Source of the DNA: Antennarius striatus | Lineage: Eukaryota; Chordata; Actinopteri; Lophiiformes; Antennariidae | Assembly: GCF_040054535.1 (NCBI RefSeq) | Contig: NC_090796.1 | Span: forward strand, 9,422,501-9,486,500 | Length of the DNA stretch: 64,000 nt | Direction of reading: 5' to 3' | Shown: positions 974 through 22,698 of the stretch, in pieces | How positions within the stretch are numbered: the first letter of the stretch is position 1 | Layout of the letters: each line of letters begins with the position of its first letter | Notes under the pieces: model-generated | The model's database searches: none | What the model saw: the letters and a program-made list of their open reading frames with translations, nothing else | Told to the model about the DNA's origin: nothing | Translations under genes and position numbers: made by a program

Positions 974-3900
974 ATGGCTTGGAAGAGGTGGATCTGTGTT
1001 TTGACATTGACCAGTCTTTTATCTGCAGGTAAGTCAAATATGGTTTGATCAACATATTTTTTGAAATGCAGAAATTTAAATTATCTGTTTCCATTGTCTA
1101 TGCCAATATATGTTATTTCATATTTTAGAGGTTTTTTGTTTTTAATTTAACCGTTACTTTACCGGGTAGGATCAATTATGAACAACTGATGGAGCCTCTT
1201 GCCAGGTCATCATGATAAATACATACATACATACATACATACATACATACATACATACATACATACATACATACATACATACATACATACATACATACAT
1301 ACATACATACATACATACATACATACATACATACATACATACATGCATACATACATACATACATACAGTACATACATACGTAGGACAAAAATTAAACAAA
1401 TAAGACAAAAATAAACAAAACAGATAAAAATAAATAGCACATATTAATCAAAGACAAGCAACCAATGTGGAACAGAATATGAAGTTAAAGACCACATAAC
1501 TAACTGCTAGGTTATATGGAGAGAGCAGGTGGAAGTCAACACATACAACAGTCAACTAGTGAATATTGTTGTTTCAAGTCACCGCAGTCAGGACGGGGTT
1601 GATATTACAAATCAATTATTATTTGACAAGACCACTCTGGGAATTTCACCCAGAGAATCCAATACCTGTCCAAAAAAACCCTGTCATTGTAAGGAAACAC
1701 GGATTTGTTCTACCAAACCGAGAGACGTTTCCTGTCTGTTACTGACAAACCTAGCACCCATCAATGAGTTATTCCCATTTATGACAGCTGATCCTATTAA
1801 ATCTACAAAAAAAAAGATCTCAAAGTATTTTATGTTGGTTTGTAGGCATTTATTCATCACGAGGCAAGTTGTATTTATACCTGAAATATATTCCATTTTA
1901 ACAAAAATAATACTAAAAGCAAAACCATGATTATCATATGGTTTCATAAGTAGAGACACATTAAAAAGTTACATCCAACAATGTGTAATAATAAATACTG
2001 AACATGGACAACTTAAATTCATAGAAGCATTTTCCTTGTATTTCTTTTTTTTACAACACAGGGAGCATAATCTGTTAGCTTGGATGGACCATCCACTACA
2101 CCCAATGAAATGTCTAACACAATTGTGTTTTCTCTATTACAGAATTACAGGCTCAGCTTAATGGTGAGTTTAATTTAATTTCTGTGTCATCCATGAATTT
2201 CATAACAATAAACATATCAATATTAGCAAACAGTAATATTTTATCTGGGTAATGATCTTGGAATTTCTAAAGTCTGAGGAAGTAATATAAAATTTGAATG
2301 AGATCTTGCTTCTAATGTTTTGTCCTTACTCATTATTTTATAGTCTGTGGAATCGCTCCCCTGAACTCCAAGATAGTTGGAGGTGAAGATGCTCCAGCTG
2401 GAAGTTGGCCTTGGCAGGTCAGTCTGCGCAAATCTGGCAGACATGTTTGTGGTGGTTCCCTCATCAACAGACAGTGGGTGATGTCTGCTGCTCACTGCTT
2501 CTCCAGGTAGGTTATTATGGTACAACAGAGTAAACATTTTCCATGTTGCGTTTTATAATTTCACCAATAATTATTTCTATTTTTACATTTGTTTACAATC
2601 TGTACTTGATTTGCTTTTTCAGTACAAGTACATCTGGATGGTCGGTCTCTCTGGGTCGTGACAACCTGCAGGGCAAAAACCCGAACCACTTGTACAGACG
2701 TATTTCAAGAATTCGTCTGCATCCAAATTATGACGATACCACCAGCGACAACGACATTGTTCTGCTCAAACTTTCCAAAAAGGTCCAGTTCACAGACTAC
2801 ATCAGACCGGTGTGTCTGGCAGCCAGTGACAGTGTGTTCAATGCTGGAACTGATAGCTGGGTGACTGGCTGGGGCACAGTCAACGAGGGAGGTGAGAATG
2901 TCACTGATCCATCTACTAACATGACTAGGAACTTTTAAAAATGTGTGCTCATGTCCATATTTCTCCTGGATGTTCTACATGATATAAACATTTGTCCATC
3001 AAACCTCTCATGTTGGAAATTAAATGTGACCTGTTTGGTGCAATCAATCTTGTTAATCTAGCCTTGAACTCCATGTTCTGAATCTTTGTGGAGAATTCAT
3101 CATTCGATCAATAGAGGTTCTTCTAGAGATGGACCAAGTTTTCTTGTTACAGGTACCACAGAAAAACTGTTGTTCCATGTTCATGATATATTCATTGGTC
3201 TTCTCTTTCAGTGTCCCTCCCCTTCCCTCAAACTCTTCAGGAAGTGGAGGTTCCCATTGTGGGAAACAGACAGTGTAACTGTCTCAATGGAGTGGGTGTA
3301 GTCACAGAAAACATGATCTGTGCTGGTTTTCTGGAAGGAGGCAAAGACTCATGTCAGGTAGGCTGCTTCACTTCATTTCTCATTTGTTGGTGACGATGAT
3401 CCACATTGAGCAGAATGTTCAAATGTCTCCTTTTATGTCTTCAGGGTGATTCAGGAGGTCCAATGGTCAGCAAAGTGGACAACACCTGGATCCAGTCTGG
3501 AATTGTTAGCTTTGGTTTTGGCTGTGCTCGGCCCAATCTGCCTGGAGTCTACTCCAGAGTGTCCAATTACCAGTCCTGGATCAACTCTATCATTCGCTCT
3601 AAAAAACCAGGTTTTGTCCGGGTCACCAGCAGTGGACCCGATTCAGACAGTAGCTTCACCTGTCCTGGTCTGCCAGCTCCTGTCATTCCTGGTCCTACTG
3701 CAGCACCAGGTGTTATAACCACAACAGTACCATCCACTGCTCCAAGTGCTGAATGTAAGCATCCTGGCAAATAACATGACATGATCAAATATATCGATTC
3801 AGATATTGAGTAAGCAGATTTAATGAAACAATTTTTTCAAATCTCAATAATATCTGTCAGTGATCAAAGCATCTTTTTTTCATAGGTATACATTCTGGAT

Positions 3901-22698: not shown

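Follow-up and report, generated by a model that had tools for sequence, protein, structure and literature searches.

Can ten trypsin-like proteases be made as one protein, and do they stay together once activated? The question is raised by a stretch of 64,000 nucleotides from Antennarius striatus (NCBI RefSeq assembly GCF_040054535.1, contig NC_090796.1, positions 9,422,501 to 9,486,500 of the forward strand), which we call the window. It holds an array of ten closely similar units of S1 serine protease. With confidence only slightly better than even, we read the array as the gene of a single secreted ten-unit precursor, whose units would be active yet joined, and whose ancestor would have been a two-domain protein with a glycosylphosphatidylinositol (GPI) anchor.

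The gene model was rebuilt independently from motif-anchored open frames and splice sites. It runs on the plus strand from 974 to 22,698, with 43 exons and 2,992 residues. Coordinates and length agree with those given earlier by a model that had read the letters alone (the sequence-only reading), which had counted 41 exons, two too few. All 42 introns have GT-AG borders and the phases agree at every junction, as had been claimed. The one long frame of polyserase type stands as well: its sole stop is codon 2993 and none is internal to it. The calculated mass of the predicted protein is 317 kDa, and the window is without any N. If a polyserase is defined by two or more S1 domains that share an open frame headed by a single signal or anchor, the predicted gene qualifies, with ten units.

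Exon 1 (974..1028, on the plus strand like all exons of the gene) carries the ATG and a signal-type peptide, judged by eye and by hydrophobicity, and ends at the donor CAG/gtaagt. Exon 2 (2143..2163) is a 21-nt pro exon that runs to N-V-CG. Unit 1 spans 2344..3754 (exons 2344-2506, 2623-2891, 3212-3357, 3445-3754), unit 2 spans 4092..6707 (4092-4254, 5219-5487, 5819-5964, 6398-6707) and unit 3 spans 7051..9010 (7051-7213, 7946-8214, 8467-8612, 8701-9010). Units 4 to 9 follow at 9552..10966, 11530..12944, 13305..14718, 15282..16696, 17057..18471 and 19405..20817, and unit 10 at 21149..22512. The four unit exons measure 163, 269, 146 and 310 nt in units 1-9; the last exon of unit 10 is 256 nt, shorter and without the long linker. 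A terminal exon of 77 nt (22622..22698) closes the frame. The first intron of the unit differs by 32-47% between the two classes of unit described below, and in spite of this all 40 unit exons hold their frame and splice sites, which is more than chance would give. The donor at the unit junctions, AATgtaag[ca], is kept in 9/9 cases, and in none of units 1-9 is there a stop ahead of the donor. A Pfam scan of the signal and units 1-2 (618 of the 2,992 residues, the remainder repeating the same unit) matched Trypsin and revealed no LDLR module.

The motifs for His57, Asp102 and Ser195, together with Asp189 (in KDSC), are present in 10/10 units, and the activation sequence reads NSR/IVGG in eight of them and NSK/IVGG in two (the slash marks the cut). 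The earlier claim of ten units with intact triad, Asp189 and activation motifs is borne out, and by these motifs all ten are predicted to be active trypsin-like S1 proteases. Ten cysteines stand at fixed places in every unit, and two further ones follow unit 10. The units fall into two classes: A (units 1-3) and B (units 4-10). Over 804 coding bases the classes are 91.3-92.7% identical to each other; units 1-3 are mutually 96.3-96.9% identical, units 4-9 mutually 99.1-99.8%, and unit 10 is 97.0-97.5% identical to the other class B units. Unit 10 also has Gly at residue 192, where units 1-9 have Gln. The second unit exon diverges most between classes (84.4-87.4% identity), mainly at unit residues 72-107, which we take to lie near the 70-80 and 99 loops of the standard numbering. 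The classes differ in charge: the isoelectric point of the mature domain is 8.2-8.5 in class A, which is basic, and 5.3-5.5 in class B, which is acidic.

Between classes, nonsynonymous divergence (dN) is 0.056-0.067 and synonymous divergence (dS) 0.146-0.193, with dN/dS of 0.31-0.40; among units 1-3 dN/dS is 0.16-0.19. These low ratios and the kept junction donors fit selection on the joined protein. Positive selection on the second unit exon was considered and rejected, its dN/dS being about 0.36-0.39 (unit 5 against units 1-3) and not above 1.

Is the array one gene or a row of genes? We looked for start exons with a filter demanding an ATG, a hydrophobic decapeptide and a phase-1 GTA or GTG donor. 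Besides the nine inter-unit introns we scanned 900-2142 and 22699-24300 with it, and 974-1028 was its sole hit. The sequence-only reading had seen no signal exon between units, and this is upheld in 9/9 inter-unit introns. Separate tandem genes with first exons of their own are rejected on this count, by a filter that is unspecific gene-wide: across 900-24300 it gives 113 overlapping start-donor pairs, mostly within units, and of these 113 only 974-1028 has gtaag or gtgag as its donor. There are 11 matches to TATAAA[AT] within 900-24300. Four lie at 935, 2286, 4636 and 7228, one at 23310, and the other six share an 86%-AT stretch of the intron between units 8 and 9. The first of these (TATAAAT, 935..941, plus strand) lies 39 bp upstream of the ATG. 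Since both filter and TATA-like matches are so unspecific, they are by themselves no proof of a single start, and they slightly lower our confidence in the single precursor in favour of shorter products. A start within a unit would lose the activation site or part of the catalytic residues, and so would give no normal single-unit enzyme. The intron after unit 8 also contains a long GATA microsatellite (window 18767-18954), followed by the AT-rich stretch; its length may vary.

If the ten units are made as one chain, does activation separate them? Each of the ten units has Cys1 ahead of the activation site, and Cys122 within the domain body. This pair normally holds the propeptide, so that a cut at [KR]/I would activate a unit without releasing it. 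Work on polyserase-3 makes the same point for that protein, whose domains would stay linked after such a cut through a disulfide from a cysteine that precedes the site to another in the body (PMC1435904). On the other side of each unit, the 31-residue stretch from Cys265 to Cys1 of the next contains no Lys or Arg in 9/9 cases, and R-x-[KR]-R has no match in the whole predicted protein. A second clamp, between Cys167 and Cys265, is likely from the distribution of these two extra cysteines. They occur together in the array, in domain 1 of a two-domain gene on contig C16 (locus L028, described below) and in a minus-strand paralogue within the window, and both are missing in the single-domain genes of L010, L013 (two genes), L014, L015 and L016. 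The comparison is of three with and six without, four of the six forming one clade; it leaves aside L028 domain 2, whose third exon is unaligned, and the tails of more distant S1 genes. The sequence-only reading had proposed that cleavage at [KR]/IVGG releases up to ten proteases, which the Cys1/Cys122 pairs and the linkers free of Lys and Arg do not favour. Its other proposal, a multivalent surface or secreted protease, fits better in its secreted version; a surface protein is less likely as the sequence is assembled, because the GPI-type tail found downstream is not in the predicted frame.

How did ten units arise? The inter-unit introns measure 337, 343, 541, 563, 360, 563, 360, 933 and 331 bases. 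The block of units 4-5 is 98.69% identical to that of units 6-7 over 3752 aligned bases with one 1-base gap, and the two blocks have the form of a two-unit higher-order repeat. The third unit exon is 97.3-100% identical between classes, unlike the second, and the first is identical across units 4-10. Unit 3, of class A by its coding sequence, is a mosaic: its third intron is 94-98% identical to those of units 4-10, its first intron just 53-59%. Such homogeneity of exons and such mosaic introns point to unequal crossing-over or gene conversion. Because the module is of phase 1-1, gain or loss of a unit leaves the frame intact. The gene may be polymorphic in its number of units, which is where our count is weakest. 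We searched the genome (548 Mb in 42 contigs, the window being C21:9422501-9486500) for further copies. Among the 141 matches listed on C1-C24 in a protein search in which only the best candidates were scored, array-like copies elsewhere (at least 77% identity) were absent: rows from the array reach at least 77% save two, of 65 and 71%, that extend into introns, and the best match outside it is at 69%, with short first-exon matches.

The closest relative gives a hint of the ancestor. Among 16 paralogous domains compared, domain 1 of L028 is nearest over the whole domain, with 65.8% identity to unit 5 over 243 positions. The gene (L028 3425-6442, or C16:1226425-1229442) has two S1 domains, whose matches lie about 100 bases apart. 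Its domain 2 is degenerate, having lost the His57 motif (TSADN), and is followed by a hydrophobic tail. Judged by its sequence, this is a small polyserase in the same genome. It shares with the array a common linker start, the extra cysteines and the presence of two domains in one chain, and differs in its degenerate domain 2 and hydrophobic tail of GPI type. Translation of nine paralogue domain ends shows, by eye, a hydrophobic tail in eight; the ninth, L028 domain 1, continues into domain 2. Downstream of unit 10 an exon reading CGKPP serves as the terminal exon. It has no Pfam match and looks by eye like a first exon in decay, left by an earlier degenerate protease domain such as L028 domain 2. 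Further on, outside the predicted frame, lies a remnant (22799..23041, plus strand) with a protease-type last exon and a hydrophobic GPI-type tail (FTFSALLLLTLPIIWIFLQS); the tail part has no Pfam match. Its tblastn matches are weak, with a best E of 0.006 to L013 (an ordinary last exon) and 0.015 to L028. Together this suggests that the ancestor was a GPI-anchored gene of two domains, one active and one degenerate, in which the first was amplified and the second decayed along with the anchor. Among the other relatives on C16 are four close single-domain S1 genes on the minus strand (L013, L014 and L016); one L013 gene reads ADSGGP, and one L016 gene reads GDAGGP, with the catalytic Ser replaced.

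These results can be put together as follows. One gene with one likely start would give a secreted precursor of about 317 kDa with ten trypsin-like domains, all predicted to be catalytically competent. The array would have grown by repeated unequal crossing-over of the four-exon phase 1-1 module, starting from the GPI-anchored two-domain ancestor, the degenerate domain and the anchor having decayed since. Each unit would be activated by a cut after Arg or Lys in NS[RK]/IVGG, probably in trans between units. After the cut, the Cys1-Cys122 disulfide would tether the unit on its N-terminal side and a family-specific extra disulfide, Cys167-Cys265, on its C-terminal side, and the linkers, free of Lys and Arg and rich in Thr, Ser and Pro, would not be cuttable by trypsin-like enzymes. 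The product would be a covalent string of three basic units followed by seven acidic ones, and its effect might be to concentrate activity locally and to bind multivalently, at a mucosal surface or some other extracellular one. Of all this, the sequence itself gives the gene model, the motifs, the cysteines, the linkers free of Lys and Arg, the charge classes and the duplication pattern; a single mRNA, both disulfides, activation in trans, secretion, ancestry and site of action are our reading of it. In its strictest wording this would make the protein a 'locked' protease polymer, i.e. ten active domains covalently joined through linkers without a site that they could cut themselves, with units 1-3 as its basic block and units 4-10 as its acidic one, derived from the GPI-anchored two-domain ancestor by module amplification and anchor loss. 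We hold this strict version tentatively, at somewhat less than an even chance.

Several observations weigh against the joined, secreted precursor. The start filter and the TATA-like motif are unspecific, with 113 and 11 matches, which leaves room for internal starts. Every one of the ten units has Lys and Arg in the segment that links its catalytic body to Cys265 (KPGFVR and the like), so that holding the C-terminal side depends on a disulfide that we infer. The intactness of units 4-9 tells little because they are very young (mutual dS 0.005-0.016). By analogy, the processing of polyserase-1 into separate units, reported in PMC1435904, speaks for separation here too. The remnant's likeness to a degenerate protease domain is weak. 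Finally, with a GPI-type tail just downstream, the protein could after all be anchored if an exon was missed or the assembly is in error.

Two alternatives accept the single gene and question its product. The precursor might be cut in its linkers, by itself or by another protease, into up to ten free trypsin-like enzymes, as is reported for human polyserase-1, whose units are described as independent (PMC1435904). The ten intact activation sites speak for this, as do the basic residues ahead of Cys265 in all ten units. Yet the activation cut leaves the Cys1-Cys122 bond in place, and the stretches between Cys265 and Cys1 offer neither Lys or Arg nor R-x-[KR]-R, so that release requires a protease of other specificity or an unformed Cys167-Cys265 bond; we find it unlikely. 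Alternatively, the gene might mainly give short products of one to few units, through alternative splicing or internal starts, the ten-unit form being rare. The phase 1-1 units have near-identical splice sites and skipping any set of them keeps the frame; internal starts could be served by the TATA-like matches at 2286, 4636 and 7228 and by those in the intron between units 8 and 9. The six in that intron may be there by chance, given the 86%-AT stretch in which they lie, and products started within a unit would be missing its activation site or catalytic residues. This outcome seems to us rather unlikely, though worth keeping in mind.

Two further alternatives question the ten units themselves. 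Their number may have been inflated or altered by assembly, e.g. if two haplotypes of the 3.75-kb block of units 4-5 were placed in tandem, and the true gene would then be shorter. The divergence between the blocks of units 4-5 and 6-7 is within reach of allelic divergence, and units 4-9 are nearly alike in their coding bases. On the other hand, the pairs of class B units that we compared differ by 9 to 65 substitutions, the inter-unit introns are unequal in length, the window has no N, and no copies turned up on other contigs among the 141 matches listed, for which only the best candidates were scored. Such an artefact is improbable in our view, and even then about five units can be regarded as safe, since units 1, 2, 3 and 10 and the 4-9 group are mutually distinct. 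It might also be that only the first one or two units are expressed and that the others are duplicates kept intact by their recency and by gene conversion. Homogenisation is indeed apparent in the third unit exon throughout the array and in the first one of units 4-10, which are almost or fully identical. But the linkers are open and the donors kept at 9/9 junctions, the older units show dN/dS well under 1 among themselves, and units 1-9 are without a stop before the donor, which makes a mostly silent array very unlikely. Among all these possibilities, the single secreted precursor with joined units is the explanation that we retain.

About 6 kb upstream of the array lies a gene of the VKOR family (L011:3142-4633 by eye, or C21:9415642-9417133). 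Pfam and solved structures both give VKOR matches for its first exon; among the structures a 'VKOR-like' protein ranks ahead of VKOR itself, so that VKORC1 is not separated from VKORC1L1. Just upstream of this gene, L011 824-2230 holds the reverse-transcriptase frame of a retroelement (RVT_1, 4.7e-29). Downstream of the array, on the minus strand at about 24300-37000 of the window, is a gene for a CD11-type (alpha-I) integrin, with FG-GAP, Ig and I-domain exons and a GFFK tail exon. Its Pfam matches (Integrin_A_Ig_2, ITGAX-like_Ig_3 and FG-GAP; two of three frames scanned) are all below the Pfam cut-offs, and one I-domain exon has integrin alpha-M among its matches (9e-5), ranked below collagen VI chains that carry this domain type too. 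There follow an aldolase A-like gene (about 40633-42700, plus strand; one exon matches aldolase A at 9.8e-43) and the minus-strand S1 paralogue mentioned above (43485-46218; Pfam Trypsin, 1.9e-59), a single-domain protease with four exons seen, a hydrophobic tail and the extra cysteine pair of the array. This paralogue reads STR/ILGG at its activation site, and ADSGGP instead of GDSGGP in its Ser exon. A receptor-like gene with one Ig V-set and two C1-set domains stands at 55269-56756 on the plus strand; judged by eye, it may continue with more Ig-like exons to about 59400. Downstream of the window on C21, L012 has two long open frames, at 3-3083 (1027 aa, with many acidic residues) and 5662-7830 (723 aa), without a Pfam match at 0.001.

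In human the order, as given in PMC9352006, is PRSS53-VKORC1-BCKDK-KAT8-PRSS8-PRSS36-FUS-...-ITGAM-ITGAX. With a VKOR-family gene upstream and a CD11-type integrin gene downstream, the array appears to be in a neighbourhood of this type. Should the upstream gene prove to be VKORC1, the array would sit where human has PRSS8 and PRSS36; this speaks of position only, our tree being limited to this genome. For the VKORC1-ITGAM neighbourhood, in which PRSS8, PRSS36 and PRSS53 lie in human, the array gives a vertebrate example of an expanded protease. If our explanation is right, it would also be a case of domain number changing by unequal crossing-over inside one gene, with a number of units that may vary among individuals, and it would make testable whether linked proteases stay joined once activated and what multivalency adds. 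Automatic database annotation may already carry the gene as 'protease serine 9-like' or '27-like'.

How does the array compare with known proteases? The best solved structure for unit 5 is prostasin (3e0n_B, phmmer 231.8 bits; best 60 of 439 matches). Prostasin (PRSS8) has a single domain and is membrane-anchored, whereas the array has ten. The closest parallels are found among the human polyserases (PMC1435904). That PRSS36 and TMPRSS9 have three domains, as the sequence-only reading stated, agrees with that paper. Like PRSS36 and PRSS53, the array is predicted to have a signal peptide and tandem S1 domains kept in one secreted chain, and has a comparable neighbourhood, and like polyserase-3 it has cysteine pairs around the activation site. 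According to the same paper, polyserase-2 and -3 keep their units together whereas polyserase-1 is processed into separate ones. Activity is confined to the first domain in polyserase-2 and to the first two in polyserase-1, and R-IVGG is missing in domains 2-3 of polyserase-2 and in both domains of polyserase-3. PRSS36 and PRSS53 have three and two domains; the array has ten, much alike, and 10/10 keep the triad and [KR]IVGG. It would work like a polyserase and, within the residues scanned with Pfam, appears secreted, without type II segment or LDLR, like polyserase-2 and -3, yet it lacks the degenerate later domains of that type. TMPRSS9 also has several S1 domains per chain, but is a type II membrane protein with an LDL-receptor module and separated units (PMC1435904), where the array begins with a signal-type exon, has no LDLR in the part scanned and has linkers free of Lys and Arg.

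Tandem S1 domains in one frame are also known outside mammals. According to PMC11172050, the polypeptidases of Tenebrio molitor have two or three domains, Sushi or LDL modules and mostly one active domain joined to inactive homologues. A gene of Nematostella has three trypsin domains that group together, within the chymotrypsin group (PMC6767649), and Xenopus ovochymase is termed part of a polyprotease in a title cited in PMC13079451. A phrase search of the open-access literature in one library found no report of chains of four or more S1 domains. Next to these earlier reports, of up to three domains and often only one of them active, the ten S1 domains with intact motifs described here would be the longest such chain found.

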